A DNA stretch of 64,000 nucleotides from Aurelia coerulea. Taxonomy: Eukaryota > Cnidaria > Scyphozoa > Semaeostomeae > Ulmaridae. The stretch lies in contig CM076951.1 of NCBI GenBank assembly GCA_039566865.1, positions 18,485,484 through 18,549,483 on the forward strand. Reading direction: 5' to 3'. How positions within the stretch are numbered: position 1 is the stretch's first letter; each line of letters begins with the position of its first letter. The notes under the pieces are model-generated. The model saw nothing but the letters and a program-made list of their open reading frames with translations, searched no databases and was not told where the DNA came from. Shown here piece by piece: positions 6,993-63,632 of the stretch. The translations under genes were made by a program, and so were the position numbers.

Positions 6993-7299
6993 TATGGTGG
7001 CCGAGAACCGCCATAGCATTTTTTTCAATGTTTTTTTCAAATAGCAAAAATTTAACAGAAAAATATCGATTGAAACGAAATAGAATTGAAACAAATTTAA
7101 TTTAAATTGATTCAAACAAATTTAATTGAAACATATTCAAATTAATTAAATAAAAAACGAATTGAAATAAAATGAAATGCATTGAAAATTAAATGAAAAT
7201 GATTTGGAAGCAGCCTAGAGCCGCCATAGCACACAATGCTTTGCGCGTTATCAAACCAAAAGGAGGCTATAGCAACATGCTACTTTCCCGTTTTCCCGC
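6993..7299 (+). repeat. Left terminal inverted repeat of the alpha-kinase transposon
   Basis: 307 bases, matching the reverse complement of 11754-12068. It ends in a CCCGTTTTCCCGC block 64 bases before the kinase ATG at 7363, so it probably supplies the promoter of that gene (inference). Confidence 0.85.
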
Positions 7300-7362
7300 C
7301 GAAATAGAAGATTGAGATTAACAGCCCTCCACTCAACAGTTTATCACACGAGAGAGTTGACT

Positions 7363-8729
7363 ATGTCTTGGAACGAATTTAAAAAGAAGATCAAAGCAAA
7401 GAGAACTGGAAAAAATGGCTCGAATGTTGCTGGATCAAACATCCTACAAACGGGAGAAATAGTTGTGCAGCGCCTCAGTGCAGAAGTAGCGGGTAAGGCT
7501 CAAAAGTACACCAGAGTAGGGGCACGGGAATTTGTGCCCTATAAATTCCCAGACATTACGCTGGAAAACATCAAGGCAAGCTGTCTAAAGCATTTCCAAC
7601 CGTTCCCTGGCAACTGTAAATTAGAATGTGATATCCTAGCTGGAGAACAGGGCCCATCCTGCAAAACAATGGAACACATTCCAGACATGAAAGTTATTCA
7701 TGTCAGATTCGTGAAGCCCTCCATTGCAGAAGGAGATGGTAAGAAGGTAGATTCATTGTCGTCAATGCCACTACCTCCAAGGCTTTTCAAAAAGTACAAG
7801 GTGAATACTGACAGGTTGAATACTGCAAGTAATGCTTTTCTTCGGTCAGTTCCCAGCACAAGTACATCACTACTTGAAATTCCAGAGGAGGTATTGAAGA
7901 AGAAAAGGAAGTACCAGTCCATGTCAATCGTCCCAAACCCAAAGAGCTTGACTGTCACTGAGATGTTGAAGCTTGGCAAAATAGTGACTATATAAAATAG
8001 GAACTGCCATACAATTGTTCCAGTTCAATTTACAGCAGATGTCATGGTTGGCTGCATCCATTGATGTTCAAGTCAACATTGAGGAACAACCCTTTGGTAC
8101 TGGAGGATTTAGAAATGCTTACAAAGCAACATGCCTAACTCCCGGATTTCCAAAGCAATGGGTGATTAAGAAGTACCTTGAGGATGCAAAGAAGTCCATT
8201 GCCACATTAGGTATGACTTTGGAAGAACACAACAAAAAGGTGGTTCAAATGCATTTACTGGCCAAAAACTTTTGCGAGCAGTTGCAAAAAGAAAGTTCAG
8301 GACAGTGGAGATAACAATTATGGGAGATTTTTGAAGTATAATCAGATATACTATGGGAAATTGGAGAGTGGCGAGTGCATAACATTGGAGGAATTTATTG
8401 AGGGAAAGTTCACAAAGTACATGAATAATACTGGAAAGCTCTGTGTTGGACCAATGAATGAAGTTGGTCAGAAGGCAGAAAGTCTGGCTCATTTCTCGTA
8501 TGAGAAGTCTGATCAAAAGCTCATGATCACTGATATCCAAGGCAGTGGATACACATTATTTGATCCTGAGATTGCCTCAGCTGATGTTTTGGATGGTGAT
8601 GCAAACATCTTGTTCTGTGCTGGTAATTTAACTTCCTTTGCCATTAATGAATTCAAGGCAAACCATGTCTGTAATGAATATTGTAGAATGGCCAGATTGA
8701 GCAAACTTTGCAGCGTACCCAGTGAGTAA
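7363..8729 (+). pseudogene. Alpha-kinase (MHCK/EF2K-type) gene, frameshifted, transposon cargo
   Basis: Atypical Ser/Thr protein kinase family. The N-terminal part (ATG 7363 to TAA 7993, 210 codons, begins MSWNEFKKKIKAK) is a basic region of unknown role. The kinase domain follows in two other frames: 8015-8314 has the nucleotide-binding start PFGTGGFRNAYKA and WVIKKYL with the likely ATP-contact lysines; 8331-8729 has YYGKLESGECITLEEFIEG, the catalytic-loop-like DIQGSGYTLFDPEI and the zinc site H-V-C-N-x2-C (HVCNEYCRMARL). Two shifts break the frame, one between 7993 and 8020 and one near 8300-8313. All diagnostic blocks are present in order, so the lesions look recent or could be sequence errors. 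The gene starts 64 bases inside the left TIR and converges with the transposase. Confidence 0.8.
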
Positions 8730-9531
8730 AAGTAAGAACACAGAAACACTCTTTTGTCATTTTTGCTGATAGGTTTTGTTCTGTTTTATTTTATATAAAG
8801 ACATCATCAATCACTGTGAATTAAATCTATGCTTTAAATATGCGAATGCGTCTGCACAGTCACTTGCTTTCACTTGCAGTGGATCTTTTATTATTTCCTC
8901 ACATCTCCTTCGAAAATCAGGAGGCAAATAATCACAGCTAGTCTCAAGTACACCTGACATTGAAGCAGCTTCTTCCATTTGTTCTTCTGTAACTTTCCAA
9001 CCTGTTGCATATACAACTGAAATTGTCATATAGAACACAAATGAAACTTTCAAGTTTTAGCTATAGGAATGGGATCTGCAGGGGGTAAATTAGGTATGCT
9101 AGGGTAAAGTTGGTAATGTCAAAAATTGATTGCCAAAAGAGCAACATTCAATACTGCAAGGAGAGCAGTTCCAACAGGTATAACTAGAGAACGTCTGCAA
9201 CAAGATTTTTACCAATTTATTCAAATTTTAACTTGCCCATTTTACACTATTATACCCTAATCCATATTGCAATATCATGCTGGAATCTTACACCAAATGA
9301 AGCATGCTATAAGAATATTCCAAGCCTTGGGGTCTGGCAGAAAATCTGGAAATGTAAGCCAAAAACACTGGTCTTGAAAACAAAGTCACTATTTCACTGC
9401 TATACCAATGCATCAAGTGTAACAGGCTTTACATTCAAACAGTGCTGGTTTCTTATGTAAAAAGTGCTTTATAAGAATATTTATCTTAAGAATACAACAC
9501 TGCACAACAACAAGCACACTTGCAAAGTGTA

Positions 9532-10282
9532 CAGGGTGTTCCAGAAAAATTTTTTGACGTTTGATTAAATGTTAAAAAATAATGATAAAATATACAGGCT
9601 CCTGGTTAGATAGCCATGTTGCTAAGATTTTCAATTAATTTTAGACGCCAGAATCTTGCGAATCCGCTAAGAATTCACGGAGTTACAAGCTTCTGAAATT
9701 CAAGTTTGTGCAAAAGCTGAAACCAGACGCCCCTAACTGACTTGTTTTTCAAAAAGGTGTCCCAAGATTAAAGTAAAAGAAGACTGTCCAATGTTTTACC
9801 TCTCGTTGATATCAGAGCAAACCAAATAGGACTTCAAAAGTTATTTAATTCTTGTAACCATTGCCCAAATTTACTTGAGAAGGCAAGTATCCAAAAACAT
9901 GAAATGAAAACTTAGTCGATGAGAGACAGGACGACTCCAAATTGTGCTCAATAGGAATCCTCCAAGCATCCATAACCTTGATTCAATGTTAGAGAAGTTA
10001 GTTTATCTAAAGTGTCTTTTGAATTCCAGTTGATTTGCTTTGAATAAACAAGATTCTACTTTTACAAAATATGCAATTTAGGGGCCTCTGGTTTCAGCTT
10101 TCGTACAAACTTGAACTTTGAAGTCTCGTAACTCCGTGAAGAATTAGCCGATCTATTAGCTTCTGGTGTCTAAAATTAATCTAAAATCTCAGCAATATGG
10201 TTATCTTACCATGGAGCCTGTTCATTATTTCGTTATTTTTTAATATTTAATCAAACGTCAAACAATTTGTTGGGACACCCTG
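9532..10282. mobile_element. Tc1/mariner-like MITE with TA duplication
   Basis: The ends are CAGGGTGTTCCAG and its near reverse complement TTGGGACACCCTG; inverted arms extend about 200 bases (for example GACGTTTGATTAAAT and ATTTAATCAAACGTC). TA flanks both ends (9530-9531, 10283-10284). It lies inside the last intron of the minus-strand transposase, so it inserted without hitting an exon. The TA duplication and CAGGGTGT ends suggest the Tc1/mariner group; no transposase inside. Confidence 0.8.
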
Positions 10283-10977
10283 TAGATCAAATAAAAACAT
10301 CTACAGTATAAACAGCTTGAAACTCGTTTGTTTCATTTTAATCTTAGATTCTCAACATACCAATATCCTCAAATACTCACCAAACTTTTGTAGACCATAT
10401 GCTTCAGGAAAATCATATATATGGTCAGGGATACCATCTGGCAAATATGTACCTTTTTGGACTCGTATTCTGTGTGAATTCCAGACTACATCCTTAAAAA
10501 TGTTAATCTCATTCTGCACCAATGGGATCATAAGATAGGCCAGCAGCATTCTAGAAATGAACGGATGTCCACATTTTGCAAATCTTTCAATACGTATAGT
10601 TTGGATTTGGTCAATTGATTTTTGAAGGTGCGGTTCTGCAAGAATTTTCAAGAGTGTTTGGAAATCTAGGCACTGAGTACGGGTTCCAGCTCAGGCAAAC
10701 CATGCAACATGCCCTGTACCGTCGCTACTAACCAAAAAATTTGCTAATACTTCTTCAATTATAGCTTCAGCTGATCTGAAGAAATTTAAGTCATCATTTG
10801 TGTCAAGCAGTAGGACTTATGTTATAGAATTATACTGTATTGCCTACGTGGCGAATTGCCTACGTGTCTGTTTTCAATATTCATTGGGTTACCATTTCCA
10901 CTTTTTTAGTCACTCCAAATGTAGTCCATAGAGAAGTAGTTATAAATTAACATCCAAGGCTGACAATTTACCTGGTA

Positions 10978-11068
10978 ACGAGTATATGCTCGAAACGTAT
11001 ATGCTTGAAACGTCGTGTTTTCAACTAACGAGTATATGCTCGAAACGTATATGCTCGAAACGTCGTGT
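10978..11068. repeat. Tandem duplication, about 50-bp unit
   Basis: ACGAGTATATGCTCGAAACG and ATATGCTTGAAACGTCGTG recur in two adjacent near-identical copies inside the intron between the second and third transposase exons. No function seen. Confidence 0.7.
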
Positions 11069-11753
11069 TTTTAACATCTCAGCTACTTTAGGTACTTAAA
11101 TCATTTATTTATTATATTATCGTGAAAATTTACTTGTCAGTATCGTTGTGTGGGTTGTAGGTGCAACTCTCCAACAAGTACTTCAAGGGAACTTTGAAAT
11201 ATTTCTCAAGGCGTTCATGCAATTCTTTCCACCAACGCTCTATCTGAAAGCAAAGAATCAGCTACTTGAAAGAAAAAATTATCTGAAAAGAGATTTTCAG
11301 AATAGCATGACTTCTTGAATATATTGCTTATGTTATTTGCTTCAGCTTATTTGCCCTATCTTTCAGTCCCATTGGATCCAAGTCAAACATGACATCATAC
11401 ACGAGATCTCTTGGAACATTTAGCTTATGGACTTGTCTGACTTTTTGGCACATTGCCCTGTACCCAAGAAGCTTTCCAGGACCCTCTAATTCTTGGCGAA
11501 CAGCTCCTTGTACTTGATCGATGGATACATCTTTATCCACATGCTTTATACCAAAATAGCAGAGATGTCGCTGCAATGTTCTCAAACTCCAAGCATATTG
11601 TTTAAAGTCTCTTTCAACATAATCTAAAACTTCTTCATGTTGTAATCCAACCTCCACTTTTTCCATCAAATAGCTTTTTAAATCTGAATCAATTCTCCAC
11701 TTGTCATTCCGAATCCTAGCCATCTTCATAGTGCTACCAGAAATCAAAAGTTA

Positions 11754-12068
11754 GCGGGAAAACGGGAAAGTAGCATGTTGCTATAGCCTCCTTTTGGTTT
11801 GATAACGCGCAAAGCATTGTGTGCTATGGCGGCTCTAGGCTGCTTCCAAATCATTTTCATTTAATTTTCAATGCATTTCATTTTATTGCAATTCGTTTTT
11901 TATTTAATTAATTTGAAATTCCTTTTTTTTTTCAATTAAATTTGTTTGAATCAATTTAAATTAAATTTGTTTCAATTCTATTTCGTTTCAATCGATATTT
12001 TTCTGTTAAATTTTTGCTATTTGAAAAAAACATTGAAAAAAATGCTATGGCGGTTCTCGGCCACCATA
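11754..12068 (-). repeat. Right terminal inverted repeat of the alpha-kinase transposon
   Basis: 315 bases, reverse complement of 6993-7299 with small indels in the AT-rich middle. Its inner edge is about 25-31 bases from the transposase ATG, so it likely contains that gene's promoter (inference). Confidence 0.85.
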
Positions 12069-12342
12069 CTGCAGTGATGCAGAATTTCGTGCCAAAACAC
12101 AAACCAAATTGGTAGAGAAGAGATTTGTTGTTGGATTTTTTCTTTTCGCACACTCATGTGGCCAATCATTGGCGATGGCCGATGGACCATGTGTTGCTGA
12201 TGTGATCGCTGAGGAATTACAATTTAGAACCTTTATCACTGTGAATGAATGCACCAGGTACATGGGCTGCAGGAGCGGGTCTGCTTTCTGGAAATGGTCT
12301 TAAAGCCTTTTGTAACGATTGAGGTTTTGAAATTGATTTTAA

Positions 12343-14721
12343 CTCATAGACTCCCGCAGGAGGTGTGAGTAGTTATGCTCTGTATACCCACAACAACAGT
12401 CAGCTGTTGTGCTCTGTGTACCCGCGAGGTGTTGAAAAATGAAGGAAAATATTACATCTTTTTTCAAACACGAATGTTGGAGTATTTAACAAAATCAAAT
12501 GAAAAAATGAAGTATTACAAAACTGTCAGTTAAAGGTTGAATTATGTAAATGTGAAAATGAATTGTCAATATCTTGTATGGTTATGACTAAAAGCATGTT
12601 AGAGTTTGCGTGTGTTAACTTTAGGCCATATATTTACAACGAAAACTTTAGTTGCTTTGATCGTTTCTTGATTATGAATACCCATCTACCATACACAAGC
12701 TAAAAAAACATCACAGATCGTTTATGCATGCTTCAGTACATGTTTTCAGTTTTATCTTCTCTCGTGAAACTGCTGAAAACAGTTCTTGTTCAGAACGCAA
12801 AGGTAAGTGAGCTTGCCAGCCGCTTCGTCACTACAATCGGTGCAAATGAATCGAGACTGTCCGTTTGTGCCTTTCTCTGTACAATTTTTGCAACGTCCTT
12901 TTACCTGAACCTTCTTTGGCCAGTGTCCTTCACCAAAAATATCAGGTCTAACTGCCCGTTTTCTTTTTCTTCCATTTCTTGTTTCTCCAAGCAACTGAAC
13001 TGCAAGGTTCTTTCGAAAATCAAGGAGCGATCTTTCTTTCTCCCTACCTGTTCGGCTTTTCAGCTTGTGGTTCTTGGACTCGCGCATTAAAACCAAAGAA
13101 TTTGATATGCACAAGTCAACAAGAAACCAGAACAGGTAAGTCCACCATCTTTTCGATGTTCTTGTTGATGAATAGGCTGTTCGCATTTGGTCGGCCCGAT
13201 CAACGCCGTCCATCCTCTCGTTGTAATTTTTGACAGGAGTTGGGCAAGGAACATCCTTCAAACTGCCGTCCTTTTGCTTCCGCTTCACTGAAGTTTGAGG
13301 GTCAGTTGGGTCAACATTTGACGACAAAAGCTTCACTGGCTTTCGTTTCGGCTTTTCTTGCCATAAGCATGCAACCAACTTGCCCTTTTGCCACACTTTT
13401 GACACAACCATACAGATCGTGTTCAATCAGTTCTTGATGTAGCTTCACCCCATTAAAATAGTTATCGAAGTAGACATGATGGTTTTTTCCTCGAATCTTC
13501 TCTGTCAATCTGCTGACAACTTTTCTTCCCAGCTCGACTTCACGTCCTCCACCATTCGGCCTCCCCACGTAAACTTCAAATTCTGACACGAAGCCATTTG
13601 CGCTATCCGCACGAGCCCACACTTTAATCCCATATTTGGTTGGTTTGGCTGGCATGTACTGCCTGAAACCAAGCACCCCTCGAAATTTAACCATTGCTTC
13701 ATCAATGGCAACATCTCTGTGAGGATTGTACTTCTCCAGGCAGTTTGCAAGAACGACATCCATGATGGGCCTAATCAGATGTAACTTGTCGCGATTTGGG
13801 TCTCCTCTGTTGTACGCTGTTCTGTCATTGGCGTGGAAATACTGAGAAAGTTTCTCAAATCTCAATCTTGGCATCACATCGGCAATTCCAAAATTCCCAA
13901 AGAATTTATCTTTACACCAATACATCCTTAATTCTGGGAGATCAACAACAGACATATAAACACGCATCCCAATAAATGTTTGGATTTCATTGGCATTTGT
14001 TGGCTTCCACGAATTGTCAACACCACGCTGTTCCTGGAGTTGCTGGGCATACCTGTTGGTCTCTTCAGCTAATTTTTCATACAGTTCTTTTGAGAAAAGT
14101 TCATGGAAAAAGTCAAGTTCTTTCTTATCATTGCCTAACTCGATGGTGGGCCCGGTTTCTTCTGTAAATGGTGGAATGAAAACGCCTTCCAAAATTTCAG
14201 TCCACTCCCCAACAGCCGTTGGCCTAGGCCGTTCTTCATCATCGTCTGAATACTCGCGATATTCCTCGTCTTCCTCTGCATCCGATATTTCACCAATAGA
14301 TATGTCGTCTTCGATCCTACTTTCTTCGATATCTCCACGTAACTCCTCATCTGGAAATCCATAAAAACTTTCGTTATCGCTGCTATTCTCCGCAAAAAGA
14401 TCTTCGTAATTTTCCATCGCTGAAACTTTCACGCAAAATCTGGAGCCACGTTGTTTTGAACGATCATAACTCAAAAATTGCCATTGGCAACCCCCCAAAC
14501 AACACACACCATTGTAAAGACAAGACAATAAGCTAAAAAATCAATTGTTGAATAGACCAATCAGACCTACGGATTTTTAGAAATTAACCAATCAAGAGCG
14601 ATGCGCCGCATGGACACAGTGGGGATACGAGAGGGTGAAAGATCATGTGCCGGGTGGAATCAATGGGTATACAACACCTCACCACAAAGCGCGCCGGATG
14701 GCACCAACGGGAGTCTATGAG
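12343..14721 (-). mobile_element. piggyBac element, complete ends
   Basis: The termini are the inverted 14-mer CTCATAGACTCCCG ... CGGGAGTCTATGAG, directly bordered by TTAA on both sides (12339-12342 and 14722-14725), the hallmark piggyBac target site. One transposase gene fills the minus strand. Length 2,379 bases, typical of an autonomous member. Confidence 0.95.
12752..14417 (-). pseudogene. piggyBac transposase (PGBD-like, DDE_Tnp_1_7), small internal lesion
   Basis: Cut-and-paste transposase of the piggyBac family. The start chosen is ATG 14417 (MENYEDLFAENSSD), followed by an acidic N-terminus, then the DDD core: VAIDEAMVKFRG (first Asp), HVYFDNYFNGVKL (second Asp) and, in a second frame, RMDGVDRADQMRTAY (third Asp). 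The C-terminus has a cysteine-rich finger (CKNCTEKG, FICTDCSDEA, CVLNKNCF) as in active piggyBac proteins. The frame changes near 13390-13410: after HDLYGC the expected segment before QKGKLVACLW is missing, so a deletion of perhaps 60-70 bases is more likely than a single-base slip. The catalytic triad is otherwise present. The host-like leader upstream of 14417 is not needed. Confidence 0.9.
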
Positions 14722-14725
14722 TTAA

Positions 14726-17219: not shown

Positions 17220-19005
17220 AAGTTACAACTAGTCTAACTCAAGGTTTTTACAAGTCTAGGGTCAACCTTGTGCTAGCCTTGTGAAAATTAGGCTATTCCT
17301 CATAAACCTAAAAAAATATTAATGCGAAAGCCAATCTAATTCCAAAAACGTGAACTACTTTTCAGTTTCTCATGGTGCAATTAAATAGAACAGGTTAGTT
17401 TTTCACAGGAGTGAGATGGGTTAGATCGATTTTTACCTGAATATTGTTTTGTTTCGTTCATAAAAAAGGCAGTAAATGCATTGTAATACAGAAAATACAG
17501 TAAATACAGTGAGAAACTCATGATGCTGTTCTCTATGTTTACTGGATCTACTCATTTACATCAAATGTAACTGGTGATGCTATCAGGAAATGCATTGTGA
17601 TACAGAAAATACAGTGAGAAACTCATGATGCTGTTCTCTATGTTCACTGGATCAACTCATTTACATCAAATGTAACTGGTGATGCTATCAGGAAATGCAT
17701 TGCAATGCAGAAAATACAGTGAGAAACTCATGATGCTGTTCTCTATGTTCACTGGATCAACTCATTTACATCAAATGTAACTGGTGATGCTATCAGGAAA
17801 TGCACTGTAATACAGAAAATACAGTAAATACAGTGAGAAACTCATGATGCTGTTCTCTATGTTTACTGGATCAACTCATTTACATCAAATGTAACTGGTG
17901 ATGCTATCAGGAAATGCATTGCAATACAGTAAATACAGTGAGAAACTCATGATGCTGTTCTCTATGTTCACTGGATCAACTCATTTACATCAAATGTAAC
18001 TGGTGATGCTATCAGGAAATGCATTGCAATGCAGAAAATACAGTGAGAAACTCATGATGCTGTTCTCTGTGTTTACTGGATCTACTCATTTACATCAAAT
18101 GTAACTGGTGATGCTATCAGGAAATGCATTGCAATGCAGAAAATACAATGAGAAACTCATGATGCTGTTCTCTATGTTTACTGGATCTACTCATTTTCAA
18201 ATGTAACTGGTGATGCTATCAGGAAATGCATTGCAATGCAGAACCTTCGGAAAAATACAATGAGAAACTCATGATGCTGTTCTCTAACTGGATCTACTCA
18301 TTTACATCAAATGTAACTGGTGATGCTATCAGGAAATATTGCAATCAGTGGAAATGCATTGCAATGCAGAAAATACAGTGAGAAACTCATGATGCTGTTC
18401 TCTATGTTTACTGAATCTACTCATTTACATCAAATGTAACTGCAAATGGGAAATGCATTGTAATGCAGAAAATACAGTGAGAAACTCATGATGCTGTTCT
18501 CTATGTTCACTGGATCAACTCATTTACATCAAATTTAACTGGTGATGCTATCAGGAAATGCATTGCCATGCAGAAAATACAGTGAGAAACTCATGATGCT
18601 GTTCTCTGTGTTTACTGGATCTACTCATTTACATCAAATGTAACTGGTGATGCTATCAGGAAATGCATTGTAATACAGAAAATACAGTGAGAAACTCATG
18701 ATGCTGTTCTCTATGTTTACTGGATCTACTCATTTACATCAAATGTAACTGGTGATGCTATCAGGAAATGCATGGTAATGCAGAAAATACAGTAAATACA
18801 TTTTGCATATGCTGTGTTGTTCTTCTACATTTTAGACTGCGGTCCGCAAAGTCTCCTGATGACACTGCAGATATGGGGAATCATCAACCTTGTTCAACCA
18901 TCGTATAACCTTGGACACATATGCAAACTTGTCGTTCCATTAACAACTTGTCTAAACAAGGTTTTCACAAGACTAAGATCAACCTTGTGCTAGCCTCGTG
19001 AGAGT
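17220..19005. repeat. Minisatellite array flanked by direct repeats
   Basis: About 12 head-to-tail copies of a roughly 105-115-bp unit occupy 17473-18799. Each carries GAGAAACTCATGATGCTG, TTTACATCAAATGTAACTGG and GATGCTATCAGGAAATGCAT. Copies differ by small indels, for example near 18240 and 18340. Similar non-satellite sequences lie on both sides in the same orientation (AAGGTTTTTACAAGTCTAGG at about 17241; AAGGTTTTCACAAGACTAAG at about 18958, each followed by a CAACCTTGTGCTAGCC block). The whole could be one element with an internal minisatellite. Confidence 0.85.
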
Positions 19006-19110
19006 TGTGCAGAAAGACCCAAAAGATACCTGGCATGATAATCCAATACACTCTTGTTACATTGCTTTGTTTTTTAATTCCATTTCAACTTTGCTTTGTG
19101 ATGAGAACTA

Positions 19111-19410: not shown

Positions 19411-19526
19411 TATTTTAATTGCTCTGTATTATTTTTGAATTGTGAAAATTTTAATTTTGTGGTGAATTGAAACATGCATACATTGTATTGTATAGCCATG
19501 ATTTTCTGCTGTTATAACGTATTGAA

Positions 19527-20560
19527 ATGGAGGATCAAGAAGTTGCTGCCATGGTAAATGAGTTAGAAGCTCAAATGACGGCCATTCAAGCTGCTTTTGA
19601 AGGAAACACCCAGTCAGGCTTATTTAGAAAAGCCCCGTTTTGTGGGAGCCAAAACGAAAATGTGAAGGAATGGTTGACTAAATTTGAACGACTTTCAAAG
19701 TTTTGTAAGTGGTCAAATAGCAAAAAGTTGGGTGCACTTGTGCTTCTTTTTGGGGGGACAGCCCTGGCCTGGTTTCAGACTCTGCCTGAGGAAACTGTGA
19801 ACAATTTTGCTACGTTGGTAGATGGATTAAAAGCACAATTTGGAGCCCAAAACCTTGAATTTATTTTTCGACAAGATCTTTATGCAAGAAAACAAGACCA
19901 AAATGAACCTTTTCATGCGATATCATGCGGAAATGCCAGCAGTTATCACCAAATGATAATGATATGATGAATGTTTTTATAAACGGTTTGAACAATGAGA
20001 TAAAAACTCATGTCATTTTAAATCAGCATAAATCGTTTGTGAAGCTGCAAACCTTGCCTGATTGAAGAGTGCATTTGGGAGTGCCACATGATGAGCCAAC
20101 TCACAGGCTACAGCCACCGCCCAAAATCTTTCCCAAGAACAAAAGATAAAGGAGCTTGAAGGTCAGGTCAAGTTGCTCATGACTTTGGCCGCCCGGAAGA
20201 AAATTGTAAAACCCCTTCCAGGCTCTTAAAGCTAAAATGCCCTCCATTGTGAAAACTCAGACACACCCATTTTTGCCATTTTCGCCTGTGATGCATAAAT
20301 CTGATGCCAGAAACGAACTTGCAGATGTGAAACAAGAGATAATTGTCGCCTTTGAAACCCGTTTCCGGGGGAATCAATTACAACACGGAAGGGGAAAACC
20401 ACGTCAACCACTAGGTAACCAAAATGTTTCAAGAGGTCAAAAATTTACAAACAACCGACGGCCAACCAATTTGCAACAGTTGCCAATGTGTAGGGCATGT
20501 TTCCAGATACTGTAATTTTTGAGCCCAGTTGGTTCCTCACAGTGGGGAAATTGAATGCCT
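19527..20560 (+). pseudogene. Decayed LTR-retrotransposon gag
   Basis: The first 146 codons (19527-19967) read as a Ty3-type Gag capsid region: a short N-terminal helix, then VKEWLTKFERLSKFCKW and TALAWFQTLPEE, the usual retrotransposon Gag pattern. The frame then shifts and is interrupted by stops. A zinc knuckle of the form C-x2-C-x4-H-x4-C (CNSCQCVGHVSRYC) can be read around 20471-20512 in another frame. No protease, reverse transcriptase or recognisable LTR follows, so this is a dead fragment. Confidence 0.7.
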
Positions 20561-20762
20561 AACAACTTTCCATTTCAAAAATCGCCCCAAACGAAAAGCA
20601 AAACTGACAGTGCATTAGGGGATTGGGCTAAGATAAGAAGGAACGAATTTGAAACTGTTTCAAATTGAGCCCAGAGAGTAAGCCCTTTATTTCGATGAAC
20701 AGTCAGGATAAAAACGTAGAAGTGCCTTCAAAATTGTAGATTAATTAAAATGTTGACATTCC

Positions 20763-21223
20763 ATGTGTGGGAGTTTCTTCGATGACAATTATTAGTAAAG
20801 CGTGCTTACCTTCTCCGGCATGTAGTCTTCGCTGACATGATCTTCTACCTAAGAAAGAAGCCCCATCATTCATTTTTCATTTTTCATTATTTTTACACGG
20901 TAGCCCCGTCAATCGAGAGGATTGCTTTACAGGGGGCCGTGCCAAACTTTAGAATAGTACTAAAAATTACTAACAAATTACCTATATTTACAATCTAAAA
21001 ATAACATAAATGAAAAATAATAGTTACCCTGAGAGAAGCAAATTACTCTTAAGCCTACTTTTAAAAATGCCGAGCAAATTTTCCCTTACAACAACGTCAT
21101 CAGCAACAGTTTGTTCAAACATTGGTGCATCATGAGATCTACTCTCTGTAATCTGGAACTACTAAAGAAAAATGATATATCATCTATATGTAAAATTATA
21201 TCCTTAGGCAAACATGCTTCATA
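20763..21223 (+). repeat. 461-bp direct repeat, copy 1
   Basis: Starts ATGTGTGGGAGTTTCTTCGA and is repeated in the same orientation at 21498-21959 with a few substitutions and a short length difference near 21555. It contains CACGGTAGCCCCGTCAATCG. No coding content. Either a segmental duplication or two LTR-like ends around 274 bases. Confidence 0.85.
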
Positions 21224-21497
21224 GGCTGTTGACTACAGAGGAATGATTTCATAACCTCTTCCATAGCGTTCCCTGTCATAATTTTTTGGAATTCGATACT
21301 TTGCCACTGTCCGTACATTTTTGGTTTCATTAGTAACGCTTGCTTTGGAAGTATGGACAAAATAACTTTTCCCTTTATGTGGACTATTTAATTGTCTTCT
21401 TTCTCATTAGTTTTTTAGTTTCTTAGTTTCTCTTTCACACTGAAGTTTACTTTTGTGTTTTCTTTTTCAACAAAATTGTTGATACCACTTTAAAGTA

Positions 21498-21959
21498 TGT
21501 GTGGGAGTTTCTTCGATGACAATTATTAGTAAAGCGTGCTTACTTTCTCCGTCATGCAGTTGTTGTCCATTTCACTGACATGATCTTCTAACTAAGAAAG
21601 AAGCCCCATCATTCATCTTTCATTATTTTTACACGGTAGCCCCGTCAATCGAGAGGATTGCTTTACAGGGGGCCGTGCCAAACTTTACAATATTACTAAA
21701 AATTACTAACAAATTACCTATATTTACAATCTAAAAATAACATAAATGAAAAATAATAGTTACCCTGAGAGAAGCAAATTACTCTTAAGCCTACTTTTAA
21801 AAATGCCGAGCAAATTTTCACTTACAACAACGTCATCAGTAACAGTTTGTTCAAACATTGGTGCATCATGAGATCTACTCTCTGTAATCTGGAACAACTA
21901 AAGAAAAATGATATATCATCTATATGTAAAATCATATCCTTAGGCAAACATGCTTCATA
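21498..21959 (+). repeat. 461-bp direct repeat, copy 2
   Basis: Second copy of the repeat at 20763-21223, same strand, nearly identical. Copy 2 ends close to the transposon that begins at 22107. Confidence 0.85.
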
Positions 21960-22106
21960 TGGATACACATAACATCATAAACTCTTGTGAAGTATATATC
22001 TATACATGGGCAGCATCTGAAGGTATTGAACAAATTTATGGATACACATAACCATTAAAACCATTAAAAAAGTTAAAAACACCATTTTAAACTTGGATGA
22101 TGCCAA

Positions 22107-22695
22107 TATGGCGCGCCGTTGCGGCAAAAAATGATAGAATCTTGTGCATGTTGTTTTAAAAAAATGTGAATGTACAAATATATTTCTGTGCAGGCAAACA
22201 ATCACTTTTGTGCCTCCATTTCAAAAATTCATCAACACCACCTTCAAACATTTATGTGTGTCACAACCCAAATCAACGTGGGTGCATACAGTTTCACATT
22301 TTCGCGAGAAAACAACAACAGTTTATCTCTAGTGTGTGTGTTTCAACCGAAAAACTCCTGTGTGTGACATCGTAACTTTGTTTCTGTGTGTGTGTCATCA
22401 GAACCTTGTGTGGGCATGACGTCGCCCGTTCCTTCGTAACAACGACAATTTTACTTCAGTGTGTGTTGTGTGCGTAGCATAACATGGTGTGTGTTACAGC
22501 TAAAAAACTGTTGTGTGTGCAAACAAATTATTGTGTGTGTCGCAAAAATTGGTATGGGCAATATCTGACTTCTCTATTCTCTTAGATAATAGGAAGAATG
22601 ACCTTTGGAGGAAACAAGTAATTTGATATCTGATAACATCGTTCTTTTCTTGATCTGATCCCTGATTCAATTGTTTGCAGCTGTTTTAGACAAAC
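22107..22695 (+). repeat. Left terminal inverted repeat, 589 bp
   Basis: Reverse complement of 31151-31739. The HECT gene ATG (22758) is 63 bases past its inner edge. The outer half is rich in TGTGTG runs (about 22255-22545). Small open frames in it are mirrored in the right copy and are not genes. Confidence 0.92.
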
Positions 22696-22757
22696 TGGGC
22701 AGGGTGTAATTGGTTTAAGTTGGTGTAGTTCAGCCTTATTTTCCACGTTGATTCAAG

Positions 22758-25700
22758 ATGGACGAAGATGGTGAACGCGAAAGATCAATCGTTGAAAATC
22801 TAATGAGAGCGGCTGCTAGGATTTCGAATCTTAGCCAGAGGCAAAGTATGCCGAATAATCAATTGCAGCAGAGTGTTGGCGTGCAGGAGTACGTTGCAAA
22901 CGCATTTCCAACTGCACGTGGTCGAAATACCAACGCATCTGGAGGATCTGGAGGAGGGCAGACATCTGGATTACCAGGTTCTAGTGCAGGTAAGAAACGA
23001 TTTGAAATTGCAAGTTGAAAGGTAGCCTGTTACCTCCTGTGACCCGCGGTGGGGGGGGGGGGGGGTACTTCACCAGGTTTTCGTCGGGGACGGGCCATCG
23101 AAGCTTCAAAAACATACCCATACCTTGTACCAATTTTCCGAAAAAGTATACCCGACCTCATACTTATACCAAAATCGCTAAGATCGATACCGTTCCTTGT
23201 AGCAAAATCGTGAAAATCGATACAGTTCCTTATACCAAAATCGCGCAAATCCACACTACTCTTCCCGATGGCATGTCTCCGTACACAAAATCACAGGGAG
23301 CCCAGGAATAATTAGTAAATTCTGAAAAAAGCGCTGGGTAGGAAGATCTGAAAAACGCTACGTAGGAAACTGCGAATGAAATGCAAAGGTGAGAGAGGCG
23401 AGAAAAGAGAAAAGAGAAAAGAGTTTCTCCATCCCCCCGCAGCGCCCTTTACCTTTATCATTTTTGTATACTTGGACAAGTCCAGGTTTGACCGTAAAAC
23501 GAACAAGATATTAAAACTACTCTCTGAAAAAATTGTTATATTTGTAAAAATATATGACATATCTTATAGAAAATTTGGTGAAAGATGCGAAAATGATAGT
23601 TAGGAAAAGTCACGAAAAATAATTAGCGTAGAAATTATCATAAAAAAGATTCCCAGACAAAACTGGCAGGGGGGGCAGATAGGGTAAACCCTATCAAGCC
23701 TACAGGGGGCGGGGGAGCTACAATCGTGGACAAAATATATTGGAACAACGTAAGATTCTACAATTTCATTTGAACAACCCCCCTTTTACCCCCGGTACAA
23801 TGTTGTTTGGATGTTTTCAGCTTCAAGATGCCAACCAACATTGTTTCGGGGGTAAAAGGGGGTGGTGCAGATGTAAGAGTGAGAAGAACTGAGATAATCA
23901 CCAAAAAATCAACTTTGTTCCAAATATTTTGTCCAGGATTGTAGATTGGTGGCTTTTCTTCTGTTGATTTTTACCAAGTGCACTTACAGCGCGTTTTTAC
24001 CCTTCTTACAATCAAAATTATTTTTTTAGAAAAATTAGATTCATTCCGGGGGGTAAACACGATGAATTTCTGAGAGATGTCTGTGTAAAACTTCGAAGAA
24101 AATAAATCCTAATAGAATCTACATCTAATGTGCTAAATGATAAGAGATGAGTTATATACTAATTTTTTGTTCTCTATCCGCGATCAATATTTTTCTTTTC
24201 TTTTCTTTAACATTTCTTAAATTTCAAGGCCATTTTGCAACCAAAACCTCTCAAAACATTTAAGGCAAAAGGACATTTCGTTTTCCTACCTCGGAAATCA
24301 TTGGAAACATGAATTTCCCCCCTTAGTTTCCAAGAGAAAATTAGGGAAAGTGTACACTTGTTGCTGTGAATTTCTTACGTGTTTCTTATATTTGTGATGC
24401 CGGAAGTGTAGACTTCATTTAGTTTTGTCAAGAGGGATTCCAAGTTACTTAGTAAGATCGCAAAACAAGTAGATAAGTAGCCTGCGTGCAGTCTTTCTGT
24501 AAATAGGAGAATTCGCACTTAAATAATTTCTAAACAGTTGCTATAACTGTACAATGTCAAAAAACTTTTGAGTGCGATGGGAAAATTAAAACTGCAAATT
24601 ATAAAAATATCTTATCTGTTTAAATGCAGGCAGGGTTGTTCGTTAGCTTTTGAAAAATTGATCCTTCTTATTTAGAGCAGTTTCTTATAAAAATAGCTAG
24701 GTGTAGACCTGGTCTGTTGTGAAAGCCCGGGGGTACTCCCATTATGGCCTAACGGGGAGGGGGTCTAGTCGGTTTGAGGCTCATACGAAATGGAACAAAT
24801 GGCCCTATTTGTCAAGCACATACTACCAATTGGGGGTACTCTAAGATTCCTGGCCAGTTAAAGATTTCACCTCTGTATGCTCCTCCGCATGGTATTATGG
24901 TCGTTGCAGCAATAATCACCAACGAATTTTGAAGTTGTTTTGCTTTTTTCTATCAATGTTTACAATTTAACATTTGAAAAGTTGCACAAAATGTTCACAA
25001 ATAGATGCTACCAAATGGCCCAATTCTATGTTCACGAGCTACCATTTGGGGGTTTCTGCAAATAAATACTACCATTTGAGGAGATTTTTCAAAATTTGTT
25101 AGGCCAGAATGAGAGCACACTCTCCCCCCCCCCCCCCCCACGGGTGTGAAAGCAAGACCCTAAAACCTGAGTGTAAATCTAGATAAAACTAGGATGCTTG
25201 GCAACCAATTGCACTATTGGTGTGATTATAATTGGTGAGGTATAATTGGCGAGGACCATGAGTACTAGCAAGCCCAAAATACAAACTATCAAAAATTATC
25301 GAAACCAATTTAGGGTATTCATATTGTAATATCTTGCTCTACGTTATTGCAGGCTCAACAAATTCGTTGCAAAGGCCACCACTCTATGCAGCATACAATA
25401 CTAATAGACAGCGTCAATTTCAAACCAGCAATCGAGGGGGGATTAAGAGAAAAACGTCCTCACAACCAACAACTAAAAAGAAACAGCCAATAGATAGAGT
25501 TTGGATCAAGGACTTGATCTTACTCCCAAGCCCTAAGATGACCAGAGTACCCAAAGGAGCTGCCAGAGAGACTCTATACAACGATGGATTTGTTGTTTCA
25601 GGCTTTAAACTGCATTCAACTCTTTCTGAAAGGGGCATTGTGCAGATGATTGAAGAACAGTTCTCAGCAGCATTTGCAGGAGTGACAGATGTAGTCAAGT

Positions 25701-27385
25701 TTACCTTTGTCCGTGCAGTCGAAAGATCCATTGTCACTGTTAAGAGTCACGAGGAGATAACTGGAGAAGTGTTGAAACATCTGTCAGGAAACAGGGATCG
25801 CCCAATCTACATTCGAGCAACAGAAGATCTCATGCACCTTATCAGCAATCCAGAGAGCCTAGACATAGACGTAGATGAAGAAAGTGGTATGGACGGGGAG
25901 CTGCCTCCCATCTCCACATTCCTTGGGAGGAAAGATGGCCAGCAGAGCACTGCTCCTGGCACCCAGACCGTAATTGAGGACTTTTTCCCTGACGAAATGT
26001 TGGCACAACAGCATCCTATCACAAGTATTTCTGATGCATTGCAAGCACAGCCAACTGCTATCGAGATCAAAGACGACGTAATCAGTAAAAGCACAACTTG
26101 TCCTGTTTGTGAGAAAGAAATTGCAGTCAATATGATAGAAGAGCACGCAAATGCCTGTTTAGAGCTCATGCAGCGACACTCAACTGGGGATACTGAAGTA
26201 TTAGAGGCATCTGCATCATTTGAAGGTACATCGTTTGCCTCGCTTCAAGAAGAGATAGCACATAGAAGCAGGCATTTCATTGATGGAAAGGAGCCACTGA
26301 AGTTTGTTATTCGTCGCAGTCATCTGACGAAAGATGTACTGAAGAAGTTGGAGTTGTTTTTCAAGCATGACCCACTGAAGCCAATAACCGTTGAGTTCAT
26401 CGGTGAAGAGGCGATCGATGAAGGGGGCCCTTTACGTGAACTCTTCACTTCTTTTTACGATGGAGTTGCACAGCTTCTGATGTATGGCCAGGAGAAACGA
26501 TACACTTTTCAGCACGACGTCCACAAACTTGAAAAAGAATGGTTCTACCTATATGGGAAATTCGTTGCTCTAGGATTTCTGATGGGTACTGCTGGCCCTC
26601 ACAACTTCTGCTCAGCTCTGGCATCGCATATATTGTCAATAGACCTTCCACCGTTAAATTCATCAAATGTGCCATGCTTTGATTTAAAGCAAAAGCTAGA
26701 ACAGGCTGAGGCGGCACAAACACAAGAAGAGCTGGATCGCATCCTGCAAGACCTTGATGAGCGTTTCGAAGCTGGTTACAATAAACTAGTTATTACTCTG
26801 AATGATAAGAGGGATCTTGTGCACAAGGTTACAAAGCATTGGATGATAACTCGCCAGTTGCAGGAAGTAGAACAGTTCCTGCGAGGAATACGATCAAATG
26901 GTGTGCTTGATATGCTCAAGCGCCATAAAGATGAGTCTATAATGGAATTTATCTACGATGCAAAGCATTTGACCGCAAGAAAGATTCAAGATATCTTCCG
27001 AATTGTCTATTCCGAGGATGAAGATAAAAAGGGAAGAGAGCAAGATGTTGCATACAACTGGTGCAACTTTCTCGACGAGTTAGAGCAGCATGCTGTAGAG
27101 GAAGTGAAGGTTAGCGATTTTCTTGCAGACGAAGGGGAGAAGAGCCTATCAATGAAGCTTGAAGACGTCCTGTTCTTCCTAACAGGCTCAAAATTTCTTC
27201 CTTCCGTCAGAATGGGAACTGGAAGGATTATATTCGACCATGATTCTCTTCAAGAAAGGCGCATCTCTGTCAGTACATGTGCATTGAAAATCATATTTCC
27301 CATCTGCGAGCGTTACACGAATGAAGAATTTACCAAAAATATCATGGAGGACATCATATCTGCACCAGGTTTTGGGATGGTCTAG
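22758..27385 (+). CDS. HECT-domain E3 ubiquitin ligase with UBZ-like zinc finger, transposon cargo
   Basis: Exon 1 is 22758-22989 (ATG to a GCAG|GTAAGA donor), exon 2 is 25353-27385 after TTATTGCAG. A glycine codon is split across the junction, so phase is exact. The protein is about 754 residues. Exon 1 is Ser/Gly-rich. Residues about 327-346 form a Cys-Cys-His-Cys finger (CPVCEKEIAVNMIEEHANAC), like Rad18-type UBZ ubiquitin-binding fingers. The HECT domain runs from about 385 to the end: IGEEAIDEGGPLRELFTSF in the N-lobe and SVSTCALKIIFP with the thioester cysteine at about residue 720. It should transfer ubiquitin to substrates via that cysteine. It resembles the 'G2/M-phase E3-like' proteins common in invertebrates. 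No stop or frameshift seen. It converges with the transposase at 29274. Confidence 0.9.
23721..23942. mobile_element. 222-bp MITE with TA flanks
   Basis: The ends CAATCGTGGACAAAATATAT and its mirror ATATTTTGTCCAGGATTG are bordered by TA. An inner palindrome pairs CCCCTTTTACCCCCGG with a GGGGGTAAAAGGGG block. Non-coding, within the HECT intron. Confidence 0.7.
24726..25143. mobile_element. Inverted-repeat element with G/C homopolymer ends
   Basis: CCCGGGGGTACTCCCATTAT with GGCCTAAC at the left pairs imperfectly with GTTAGGCC followed by a C run and ACGGG at the right. Internal CTACCAATTGGGGGT / CTACCATTTGGGGG units recur. Within the HECT intron, non-coding. Confidence 0.6.
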
Positions 27386-27538
27386 TGAATGATAGAGATT
27401 TTAAAGAGAAAAGTTTACGGGGTTTACTTTAATACGATGCTTTTATGTTATAAGATATGTTTATATGAGGATTTACTTTCCTTCTGTCCGGAAGCGATGG
27501 TGTTGTAGCATTAAAATCAAATCAACACAGATGTAGTA

Positions 27539-27961
27539 CAGTAAATCCCCGCATATAAGAACCTACTTTTTTGGCCGCTAGGCTGAAATAGGTTCTTAGT
27601 TTAAAGGTACTAAAACTAATGTCAAGGTATAAAGGTTCTTATTTGAAGAGTACCTTGCGTAGGCCGTTTTAGAACCTCAACCACAGATGTTCAGCCCCAT
27701 TATTTGATTTGGCAAACTTATACTGTACCTAATAACCAGTTCTAAGCTTACAAACAGCAGGGGAGGAGATTCAAACTTTAACAGCCCATTGAGAACAAAA
27801 TCAACTTAATAATGACAATCCAAAATCAACTTTGCTACCCCTGCTATAAGAACATAATTTATATCAAACTGAAGTAGGTTCTTAATGACAAGGTGCATAA
27901 GTAAGGAAAAACAGCCTCTGTGTTCTTATTTTTGTAGGTTCTTATTTGCCGGGATTTACTG
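27539..27961. mobile_element. 423-bp MITE (CAGTAAATCCCCGC ends)
   Basis: CAGTAAATCCCCGCATATAA with AGAACCT at the left pairs with AGGTTCTTATTTGCCGGGAT and TTACTG at the right. TA borders both ends. The same family occurs at 52946-53366 with near-identical termini and length. Confidence 0.8.
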
Positions 27962-27996
27962 TAGGCCTTGTGACAAATTGTCACAAGGCCTACAGT
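27958..27996. repeat. Perfect hairpin, 19-bp arms, 1-base loop
   Basis: CTGTAGGCCTTGTGACAA is followed, after one base, by TTGTCACAAGGCCTACAG, with one more pair outside. It overlaps the last bases of the MITE ending at 27961, so it may reflect a second insertion or a rearrangement at that end. Confidence 0.8.
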
Positions 27997-29273
27997 GACA
28001 AATGTATCATGTCCGTTTTGGAGATCTTGCTTCAAACCAACACGACATAACCTTTGCTAAAAAAGGACAACAATCATTGGAGTACGCAGGTACCCCAGTT
28101 AGTTAAGTGTATCTCTAACTTTTCCCTTAGATACATGGCTATCTTAGAAATTTTGTGAAAGCTCTTTACCCCTTTAACCAAGGATAACATTTGCCCGAAA
28201 TATTGGCAACAAGCATTTTGACAATCGAATACCTTATCTCCAAACTGTTATGACAGGAATGTTGTTTAGGTGGCAAATTATAGGTGGTTCTTTAGGTGGA
28301 ATGTCTATCTTTGGGTGGCAAATTATTGGATGTACCTTCTTGGTTACAAACTGTTTTGAAGACCCAATTATAATCGCTTCACCAATGCATACGACTGAGG
28401 TTGACTTCCGAGCCTCGAAAATTGTACCCAAATTGGAGGTTGTACCCACATGCCAATTCTAACTTGTCGTAGTAAATGAAATCATTTCTCAAATGAGGTC
28501 TTTAGAGCAGCCACGTGCAAATACATGGTGAACTGAGAGTTGAATTTCTAATAAGCAGTCTTTTGTAAAGAAATACGTGTAGAAGAATATGGATCGTACG
28601 CAAGTTCCAGTCACAGGCACATATTTTGTGTTTGCACATATACAGTTGCCACTTATGCGGTAAATTTAACTGTTTTCCCAACAACATTTGCATGTTTTGT
28701 TTGACATATCTTTTTAGAGAGAAGAATTCTGAGCATTTTGTTGATTCACTTACTGTTATGTAGATGTTATGTTTATGTTAAATAACCTAATTATTGGTTT
28801 TTCCTCAGTAACTCTCTGCCCATAAAAGCACTTAATTCGTACTGCATGAAACTAGGATCAGCTTTACCATCCTTACTTATTCGCCCATCCCCCCAAAAAT
28901 GTGTCCCGTTTGTACTCCTTCTGTGGAGGAGCTGTACCTTCTATCGGCTCACTCTTAATACAGTTGCATGGGATAGGTGTCAACGTAGAGTTTGGGATCT
29001 TGTTTGGGCCATAGTTGTGCCTCTGTGCCATAAATCAGTGGTTGCTGATTTATGACACAAGAGAAGCATAAAAAGCAGGTAGTTGCTCTGAAGTAATGAC
29101 CTCTCATTTCAGTAAGCAAGTTTTTAAATCTTGACTTTTTATCCCGAATTGCCCCGGTCTACACTTTATAAAAAAACGAGACAAATGAGATCAAAGCTAC
29201 TCCACAACAGCCAAACAAAAAGGCAACAGTTCTGAGGTGATCATGTGGTATTAGATAAGGAACTGCATTACGT

Positions 29274-31073
29274 TTACTGATAGTAGCTAATTACAGACTG
29301 AAATCCTTGTATAGTGTCCACCAATGCAAGATAGATTTCTATTCCATAATTATCATCAGTTGCAAATGGGTCAAATTCGGCCAATGTCGTTGTTTCAACT
29401 TCATTGAAGTCAAAGGGATGCCTTGGAATAACTACGTTGTTGTTAGTTACTGTTTCTGGAAAAGCAGTATCTTGATCATCAACTCCATATTGCAGTGGAT
29501 CGAATTCTTGGATGTTCATCATCTCCCTAACTGTATCACCTTGCAGCCTTCTGTATACATCCTGAAGCCACAGCTGCATTGGTGTTCTAGAATGCTCCGT
29601 TCTCAGAGGATGGTTATTCCAGTGTGCTCGAAACTCTTCGAGTGCTTTGTTCAGCCTCGGGATATAAACAACTTGCAGCGCAAGAAGATGTACCTCATTC
29701 AGTGGTGCTAAAATGTCGACTTCTTCCATATGGTAGAATAGATCTCTGAAATGACCAACGACATAATTCACAACATCTCTCCACAGCCTCTCGATACGTT
29801 GATTATGGACAGAGAGGCCTGTAAGATGTGGGCAAGACTCTGTGCCATACTTGCTTAACATGAGACGAGCAACGCCGATATTCTCCATTCCTTGGTCTGA
29901 GCGCACACGTCTTGGCCAATAGAAGGAATTTGTGGAGCTGGAGAAAAGTCCCGCAACGGTTTGAGCACAATTATTATCACACCCATATAAGTAGATAATC
30001 AGACGTGAAAACCCATCAATACAGCCATGAATGACCATACGCCAACGAATCAGTTTATGATGGCTATCAATGTGCCTGAAACGGAAAGATACTTTTGATT
30101 ATTTGCAATGATATACTATATGACTACATCAAGACTACATTCGTACCTTTTTCAGAGAAAAATATTTTTTTTGCTTTCCTATATAGGGTTTCACATTCAG
30201 GACTGCCTGTTTTACATATTTACAAATCATTTGGAAAAGATGCTCGGGTTTTTCGCTTTTACAATGTCACCCCATTTCGGTAGAGAAGTTTGAATTTAAC
30301 AATGCTACATAGAAAAATCACAAAAATTTTTACCACAAAGCATTTGCTCCTTCTACGCAGTATCTTCTTCTTTTCAAGTTCCTTAATCTGCGAAGAACTT
30401 TGCCAAGTGGGTCGACTCGCGAAACCGACTCTCTCATACGCCTTCTCTGGACTCGAATCCCTCTTCCTCGCAATGCACCAGATAGAAGTCTCTCACCCAT
30501 GTTTGGTGATTCTAACAGTAAGGCATTGATAATGTTATCGAGATCCATATCTTCGATTTCTGAAAATGTTTCGGTGATGTCCATATCCTTTCTCTTGTTT
30601 CGAAGGGTCCTCTCGGATATTGAAAGCATCTCTGCAATGGATTTCCATGTGAAGCCAAGATTACGAAGGCCCTGTATCTGGTCTTCCTGTACTATGTATG
30701 ATGGGCGCCCTTTTCTCCCAGAAACTTCTTGTGGACAGCGAAATCCGTGATGGCCTTCGGGCATTGATACATAGTCAGCACTTGACTGTTGCCAAGCCAA
30801 TTCATGTAAAAAATTTAATTTGCTGCTTAACACTTCGATCAGGTCTGTTATCCCATCTCCTAAGTCACCAGGTAGCAAATACTCAAATGAAAACTCCTGC
30901 AAAATAGCTATTGTGTGTTGAACCTCTTGAACATAGAATTCAGCAAGAGTTTTCAATTGCCCTGTAGTGAATCCATAGCTATTTTCAGTTTTTTTAAGAT
31001 AATTTATCTTTTCCAGCAGCTCCTTTGAGTAAAGTAAAACGTCTTTCAAAATGGCAGTTGACTCTTCTTCCAT
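29274..31073 (-). CDS. DDE transposase, rve/IS3-type (IS3EU-like)
   Basis: Two exons on minus: 31073-30334 and 30075-29274. Donor TTTGTG|GTAAAA and acceptor TTTCAG|GCACAT join in phase to give LWHIDSHHKL. The protein is about 513 residues. A coiled-coil-like N-terminus is followed by a resolvase-type helix-turn-helix at about 133-163 (LGFTWKSIAEMLSISERTL), a basic stretch (VLRRLRNLKRRR), and an integrase core with Asp250 (HIDSHHKLIRW), Asp307 (RVRSDQGMENI) and Glu342 (VHNQRIERLW), 34 residues between the last two. All three catalytic residues are present. It would cut and join the ends of the 22107-31739 element and perhaps relatives. The ATG at 31073 was chosen because the frame upstream has none; it lies 78 bases inside the right TIR. 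Confidence 0.88.
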
Positions 31074-31150
31074 AATCAGGAACTGCAAGCTGAACAACTT
31101 TGGCGAACTAAATTCATTTTCACAAAATATCTAGACTGGACGGACGGTTT

Positions 31151-31739
31151 GTTTGTCTAAAACGGCCGCAAACAATTGAATCAGGGATCAGATCAAGAAA
31201 AGAACGATGTTATCAGATATCAAATTACTTGTTTCCTCCAAAGGTCATTCTTCCTATTATCTAAGAGAATAGAGAAGTCAGATATTGCCCATACCAATTT
31301 TTGCGACACACACAATAATTTGTTTGCACACACAACAGTTTTTTAGCTGTAACACACACCATGTTATGCTACGCACACAACACACACTGAAGTAAAATTG
31401 TCGTTGTTACGAAGGAACGGGCGACGTGCTGCCCACACAAGGTTCTGATGACACACACACAGAAACAAAGTTACGATGTCACACACAGGAGTTTTTTGGT
31501 TGAAACACACACACTAAAGATACACTGTTGTTGTTTTCTCGCGAAAATGTGAAACTGTATGCACCCACGTTGATTTGGGTTGTGACACACATAAATGTTT
31601 GAAGGTGGTGTTGATGAATTTTTGAAATGGAGGCACAAAAGTGATTGTTTGCCTGCACAGAAATATATTTGTACATTCACATTCTTTTAAAACAACATGC
31701 ACAAGATTCTATCATTTTTTGCCGCAACGGCGCGCCATA
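31151..31739 (-). repeat. Right terminal inverted repeat, 589 bp
   Basis: Reverse complement of 22107-22695, same length, with rare differences (for example one base near 31685 and a few near 31425). Its inner edge is 78 bases from the transposase ATG. Confidence 0.92.
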
Positions 31740-63532: not shown

Positions 63533-63632
63533 AGGGATGGGATGACACCAAACACTGGCTTTTTCTTGACCATTTTCTCACTTTTGACTGAAAGGAAAAG
63601 GTTATCACATTATATATCAGGGTCACCCAAAA

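Follow-up and report, generated by a model that had tools for sequence, protein, structure and literature searches.

Why should two neighbouring DNA transposons in a jellyfish genome each carry a gene for a protein-modifying enzyme next to the transposase gene, and why should the enzyme be a different one in each? For a eukaryotic transposon that moves by cut and paste, a transposase is commonly regarded as almost all that is required. The two elements, here called E1 and E2, lie in a stretch of 64,000 nucleotides from Aurelia coerulea (GenBank assembly GCA_039566865.1, contig CM076951.1, positions 18,485,484 to 18,549,483), which we refer to as the window and from whose first letter all simple coordinates below are counted. 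E1 combines its transposase with an alpha-kinase, and E2 with a HECT ubiquitin ligase. We propose, with a probability of roughly 0.78, that E1 and E2 belong to two IS3EU lineages that share one conserved two-gene plan, and that the accessory enzyme is a retained working part of this plan.

Both elements begin with TATGG and end with CCATA, and both are enclosed by 6-bp target-site duplications (TSDs) and long terminal inverted repeats (TIRs; Table 1). The TIR arms of E1 (307 and 315 bp) agree at 304 positions and differ by 3 mismatches and 8 gap positions, and the 589-bp arms of E2 are identical at 581 positions. We scanned the window for pairs of the form TAYGG..CCRTA, 0.2-15 kb long and with the same 6-bp flank on both sides, and exactly two pairs passed, namely E1 and E2. 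In each element two genes read inward from the TIRs, the enzyme gene on the + strand near the left TIR and the transposase gene on the - strand near the right TIR, and all four genes start 25-78 bp inward of the TIRs. The likeness between the TIRs of E1 and those of E2 stops after the first bases, and a blastp comparison of E1 pieces with E2 pieces gave a best E of 0.14. These results bear out the shared anatomy and the divergence of the two transposases that an earlier note on this DNA had described. The genes of E2 are open, but in E1 part of the transposase is deleted and the kinase runs over three frames. The same note had spoken of a convergent array; piggyBac-like and gag-like transposon remains occupy part of the 10 kb between E1 and E2, and therefore the two do not form one array.

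The E2 transposase is an open protein of 513 amino acids (aa) encoded in two exons with a GT-AG intron, and it matches the rva_4 integrase core (PF24764) with an E of 1.2e-69. The E2 HECT protein comprises 754 aa over two exons, the second of which lies within a 707-aa open frame, whereas the longest frame in 300 dinucleotide shuffles did not exceed 210 aa. The C-terminal half of the protein matches the HECT domain of E6AP by sequence. A C-terminal Cys (STC) is aligned with the Cys of E6AP that we take to be the catalytic Cys of HECT ligases; this stretch alone scores 2.4 bits, and the VSTC motif is also present in the HECT protein of another locus of this genome, L072. The E2 protein further contains a C-x2-C-x11-H-x3-C motif, which resembles the UBZ4 zinc finger and gives weak matches to RAD18 UBZ (E 0.25-0.32).

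The E1 kinase matches the alpha-kinase family (PF02816) with an E of 6.8e-28 and 98.4 bits, against a cut-off of 21.3, and a further piece matches with an E of 0.0011. Its sequence matches the TRPM7 kinase and EF2K, and its TDIQG..DP and HxC..C motifs, with the catalytic Asp and the zinc-binding His and Cys of alpha-kinases, line up with the TRPM7 kinase. A frame of 231 aa in E1 stands out, compared with at most 175 aa in dinucleotide shuffles. The remains of the E1 catalytic domain, when joined, match rva_4 with an E of 8.3e-10 over profile positions 105-172, and a six-frame search of E1 found nothing credible of the first ~100 rva_4 positions, so that the first two Asp are missing. The other half of the core is kept by L084, a member of the E1 family with a 98% identical N-terminus. 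The deleted transposase half and the kinase spread across three frames mark E1 as a damaged copy. Its TIR arms have scarcely diverged, however, which suggests a recent move by a transposase acting in trans. Between its two genes E1 also holds an inverted repeat (9540-10275), perhaps a small nested element.

Table 1. Features of elements E1 and E2, in window coordinates
Feature	Positions	Strand	Remarks
E1, IS3EU-type element with alpha-kinase	6993..12068	.	5076 bp; from ends, TSDs and TIRs
E1 TSD, CTGCAG	6987-6992 and 12069-12074		perfect copies
E1 left TIR	6993..7299	+	arm alignment
E1 right TIR	11754..12068	-	arm alignment
E1 alpha-kinase gene	7363..8729	+	frames 7273-7995, 7988-8314 and 8217-8729; start 64 bp inside TIR
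E1 transposase, N-terminal exon	11328..11729	-	start 25 bp inside TIR
E1 transposase, catalytic-domain remains	10355..11261 (11133-11261 + 10355-10690)	-	rva_4 profile 105-172 only
E2, IS3EU-type element with HECT ligase	22107..31739	.	9633 bp; from ends, TSDs and TIRs
E2 TSD, TGCCAA	22101-22106 and 31740-31745		perfect copies
E2 left TIR	22107..22695	+	589 bp; arm alignment
E2 right TIR	31151..31739	-	arm alignment
E2 HECT gene, exon 1	22758..22989	+	start 63 bp inside TIR; GT donor, splice site inferred
E2 HECT gene, exon 2	25353..27385	+	holds the HECT domain with its candidate catalytic Cys (VSTC) and the UBZ-like motif
E2 transposase, exon 1	30334..31073	-	weakly helix-turn-helix-like N-terminus, under cut-off; start 78 bp inside TIR
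E2 transposase, exon 2	29274..30075	-	rva_4 integrase core, D-56-D-34-E

We surveyed the assembly from which the window was taken (574 Mb, 294 contigs) for relatives of the four genes; because only the best candidates were scored, the survey counts are lower bounds. The best 150 of 521 candidate rva_4 cores were scored, all of them above the cut-off, and this list consists mostly of E2-like cores. The N-terminus of the E1-type transposase gave at least 150 matches including E1 (best 150 of 175 candidates scored), and the alpha-kinase gave 100 matches from 107 candidates, many of them in open frames of 435-513 aa. For the HECT family there were at least 132 matches (best 129 of 260 candidates scored), and for relatives of the E2 HECT protein at least 76 (best 71 of 209). 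At least five full-length copies of the E2 HECT gene, E2 included, occur in the genome, 99-100% identical and open. Matches on the same strand were merged into one locus when separated by less than 3 kb (HECT) or less than 1.5 kb (kinase and N-termini).

A HECT locus lies within 10 kb of 63 of the 150 scored rva_4 cores, and all 63 of these pairs are convergent; a kinase lies within that distance of three cores, on the same strand in each case. Starting from the enzymes, a transposase from either list was found within 10 kb of 78 of the 165 merged HECT loci, 77 in convergent orientation and one on the same strand at 9 kb, whereas 300 draws of random placement, which ignores transposon crowding, averaged 6.0 and never exceeded 14. 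Similarly, an E1-type N-terminus accompanies 57 of the 92 kinase loci at a distance of up to 10 kb, in convergent orientation at 54 and on the same strand at 3, while 35 have none; 1000 random draws averaged 1.9, with 7 as the highest value. Two of the three same-strand kinase calls come from a cluster of adjoining or nested E1-type elements at C17:4.88-4.92 Mb. The gaps of the convergent HECT-transposase pairs have a median of 2.2 kb and range from 0.9 to 9.6 kb. The gap lengths of 64 HECT-rva_4 pairs fall into 43 bins of 25 bp, with 11 bins for another 15 pairs and 40 for another 57, and since the pairs are scattered over so many lengths, they do not represent one family counted repeatedly.

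The choice of enzyme differs between transposase lineages. Among the first 74 matches to the E1-type N-terminus (at least 42% identity), 51 have a convergent kinase, 2 a same-strand kinase and 21 no kinase; a HECT locus is found in convergent orientation at none of them and on the same strand at one. In the more distant set of 69 loci, none of which lies less than 3 kb from a close one, 13 have a convergent and 1 a same-strand HECT locus, compared with 4 convergent and 2 same-strand kinases. We also looked at what the ends of E1-family elements enclose. A search of the genome with the opening 26 bases of E1 gave 13 occurrences, and the same pattern read backwards gave none. These ends can be joined into six pairs, with one end left over. 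In five of the pairs, E1 among them, a kinase and a transposase of E1 type lie inside and converge; the sixth (C21:17794489-17809835, 15.3 kb) has no kinase or transposase match inside.

A tree was calculated from 30 integrase cores, of which 27 are from this genome (E2 included) and 3 from sponge-like contigs. E1 itself has no core for the tree, and L084 stands in for it. The kinase-linked and HECT-linked cores had been picked for their known partners, and near-copies as well as L086, L093 and L095 were omitted. Three groups were obtained, A (with E2), B (L076-L083) and C (E1-type, L084-L094), in an unrooted tree in which 14 of the 27 inner branches are weak, mostly within A. The nine kinase-linked cores form one clade with a support of 100/99, and the eleven HECT-linked cores are divided between A (seven) and B (four). 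A single change between kinase and HECT is thus sufficient on this tree, cores with no known partner not being counted. Seven of nine B and C proteins examined with Pfam exceed the rva_4 cut-off; L084 falls short of this cut-off (26 bits) with 22.0 bits, and for L085 there was no match at E 0.001.

We also asked whether selection acts on the enzyme genes. The HECT proteins of E2 and L072, which stand for two E2-like families, share 53% identity over 615 aa, and over 604 codons the proportion of differences is 0.317 at non-synonymous sites (pN) and 0.774 at synonymous sites (pS), with both frames open. Since silent sites are saturated while both frames have stayed open, selection must have kept the HECT gene. 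Of eight HECT loci fetched for estimating non-synonymous and synonymous divergence (dN and dS), seven were used and L070 was dropped for a stop; the closest copies (L065-L069) have a dN of 0-0.0035 to E2, which leaves too few differences to judge. For the kinase, 28 of 30 fetched loci were used, L037 and L038 having no passing open frame, and among the resulting 378 pairs 334 are saturated, 28 near-identical and 16 close.

Taken together, these data show that the plan proposed in the earlier note from two elements recurs throughout the genome in an almost invariably convergent form. The comparison of transposase tree and cargo type that it had called for, made here within one genome, places the nine sampled kinase-linked cores in one clade. 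Its idea of a modular system finds no support in the form given: because the partner type is tied to the transposase lineage and one change suffices, the change of partner looks like a rare replacement rather than the use of a freely modular slot. As the contrary pattern the note had named relatives that mostly have nothing but a transposase, together with second genes that are chance pieces of host genes interrupted by stops. This is not what we see in the close E1 lineage, with its convergent kinases, or in the open HECT genes, yet the E2-type cores include many with no partner in view, and these are considered next.

Several observations weigh against the reading that the enzyme is a retained working part. 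At 84 of the 150 scored rva_4 cores neither partner lies within 10 kb, a figure that is an upper limit because only the best candidates were scored, and at least seven near-identical cores (L011-L015, L026 and L034) have no HECT or kinase within that distance. Likewise, 87 of the 165 HECT loci have no transposase within 10 kb, host HECT genes and their exons being included in this number, and 34 of the 92 kinase loci have no transposase from either list. Our random placement takes no account of crowding among transposons, but crowding would not explain the orientation. The E2 HECT protein reaches an E of only 5.6e-5 and 23.4 bits with PF00632, just under the cut-off of 23.9, although relatives in the same slot exceed it (for example, 74.5 bits at C1:6782085), and the second Cys of the UBZ-like motif is absent in L072. 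Finally, the 16 close kinase pairs show dN/dS values of 0.25-1.04, indicating weak or no constraint. Some of the 84 cores may appear partnerless only because scoring was limited, the HECT gene has diverged or the copy is truncated, the family of seven cores may have lost its partner or carry another, and some families may indeed do without one; weak constraint among recent kinase copies is what is expected for copies after insertion. The partnerless cores, the close kinase pairs and the kinase of E1, broken across three frames, would all suit the notion that the enzymes are passengers, that is, fragments of host kinase and HECT genes caught by chance and carried without use. We nevertheless consider this improbable, given that the same two enzyme families recur, each in its own lineage and in one orientation (63 of 63 for HECT, 54 of 57 for the kinase), that the HECT frames are open between two families with saturated silent sites, that many kinase matches stand in long stop-free frames, and that the same kinase arrangement is described for rust fungi (PMC12730594).

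The convergent layout might also be a by-product of long TIRs, if captured genes were expressed only beside a TIR promoter and the identity of the enzyme were of minor importance. The position of all four gene starts just inside the TIR edges agrees with this, but the recurrence of alpha-kinase and HECT genes, each tied to its clade, would remain unexplained (the search was for these two kinds of second gene), and we regard the proposal as rather unlikely. A possibility with somewhat better prospects, though we would still not favour it, is that the enzyme's target is the transposase of the same element, for which it would serve as an inbuilt brake or activator, with copy number kept down, or transposition timed, through phosphorylation or through turnover driven by ubiquitin. 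Equal TIRs before both genes would give matched doses, and the strict pairing of lineage and enzyme fits co-evolution; the switch between unrelated enzymes, however, points to a common target in the host more than to two different modes of transposase recognition. That E1 resembles E2 through recent duplication, or through recombination between the elements, can be put aside almost entirely. The two do share a transposon-rich region and are found within 25 kb of sequence, but their TIR DNA has nothing in common past the first bases, their proteins gave no convincing blastp match, and the cores of both lineages, with L084 representing E1, fall in well-separated clades.

If the enzyme is a working part, as we prefer to think, the system may operate as follows. 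The TATGG ends and the 6-bp duplications indicate that the transposase would cut at these ends and insert with a 6-bp stagger. Each long TIR would read inward, one copy ahead of the transposase gene and the other ahead of the enzyme gene; since each gene begins a short distance (25-78 bp) inward of its TIR, the duplicated TIR probably provides the same promoter for both. One lineage has an alpha-kinase as its accessory enzyme and others have a HECT ubiquitin ligase, and a role of this enzyme in transposition is suggested by its retention. Its most likely target, ahead of the transposase itself, would be a host factor that limits the element, for example in silencing, repair or a checkpoint, and we rate this at slightly less than an even chance. 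E1, with its incomplete transposase, would have depended for its recent move on transposase provided in trans. A more far-reaching combination of these ideas, which we offer as a doubtful one, is that kinase and HECT ligase replaced each other by disabling the same transposition-limiting host pathway, that IS3EU elements therefore act as natural screens for a host defence, and that much of what looks like an expansion of alpha-kinase and HECT genes in animal genomes of this kind is of transposon and not of host origin.

If these suggestions are true, phosphorylation and ubiquitylation are alternative ways to shut down one host defence. Many elements of one animal genome keep a protein-modifying enzyme whose type is tied to their lineage, which introduces a testable question as to what limits transposition in animals. 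It is also a warning that, in genomes of this sort, dozens of the genes listed as 'kinase' or 'HECT ligase' belong to transposons.

IS3EU elements have been described as having TA..TA ends and usually 6-bp duplications (PMC10045372), and the rust-fungus families as having TAYGG..CCRTA ends and TIRs of more than 30 bp (PMC12730594). An integrase-like DDE transposase, TA..TA ends and a 6-bp TSD define the superfamily in these papers and are shared by E1 and E2. Judged by sequence against the published descriptions, E1 and E2 are of the IS3EU type by core, ends and TSD, where the core is found in E2, while the E1 copy keeps profile positions 105-172 only and L084 the other half. The closest parallel is that of the TET+ families of rust fungi, in which transposase and alpha-kinase are oppositely oriented as in E1; in all of these families, according to the same source (PMC12730594), a TET/JBP gene sits between the two, a gene for which no search was made in E1. 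The combination of transposase and alpha-kinase is therefore already known from rust fungi (PMC12730594), and what appears to be new here is the HECT-bearing variant, which the survey within one genome backs. We found no HECT-bearing IS3EU element or other HECT-bearing DNA transposon in the published literature, mainly freely readable papers having been searched. Styx of Zymoseptoria is similar in its IS3EU-related transposase, 6-bp duplications and several genes per element, and is modelled as derived from a two-protein IS3EU ancestor; a new Styx insertion is traced to a parental copy whose integrase is non-functional, much as we suppose for the mobility of E1. It differs in that its other genes are described as encoding GATA, CCHC and DUF3577 proteins and not a kinase or HECT ligase (PMC10853768). 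GingerRoot (Cerbin et al. 2019), as summarized in PMC10045372, likewise has an integrase-related transposase, 6-bp duplications and mostly TA..TA ends.

Beyond this genome, scans for relatives confirmed none among viral contigs and found none among prokaryote contigs. A motif scan returned three contigs (L001-L003) of a Cycloclasticus metagenome-assembled genome from a sponge, with E2-like cores 41-48% identical, on contigs too short to show a partner gene. Because these transposases are of the animal IS3EU type, the contigs are probably host contamination in the genome assembled for the symbiont. The idea that the kinase and HECT proteins have an N-terminal domain in common was rejected, since 333 of 2000 shuffles aligned as high. 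Structures predicted from one sequence for HECT (mean confidence score, pLDDT, 36) and from four sequences for the integrase core (mean pLDDT 42) were too poor to use.

Between E1 and E2 lie a piggyBac-like transposase (DDE_Tnp_1_7) in two overlapping frames at 12752-14540 (-), direct repeats at 17389-18866 with a spacing of mostly 105 bp, and a gag-like frame at 19518-19967. Pieces of a P-element-like transposase with TNP-like RNase H and GTP-binding insertion domains are found at 58780-59883 (+) and 61451-63577 (-), where a match to Tnp_P_element_C is weak and under its cut-off. An open frame at 45034-45717 (+) matches PF20478, the intracellular domain of the P2X7 receptor, with an E of 3e-18, and a 1109-aa open frame at 47994-51323 (-), whose only match is a weak one to NHL repeats, is possibly a host gene.

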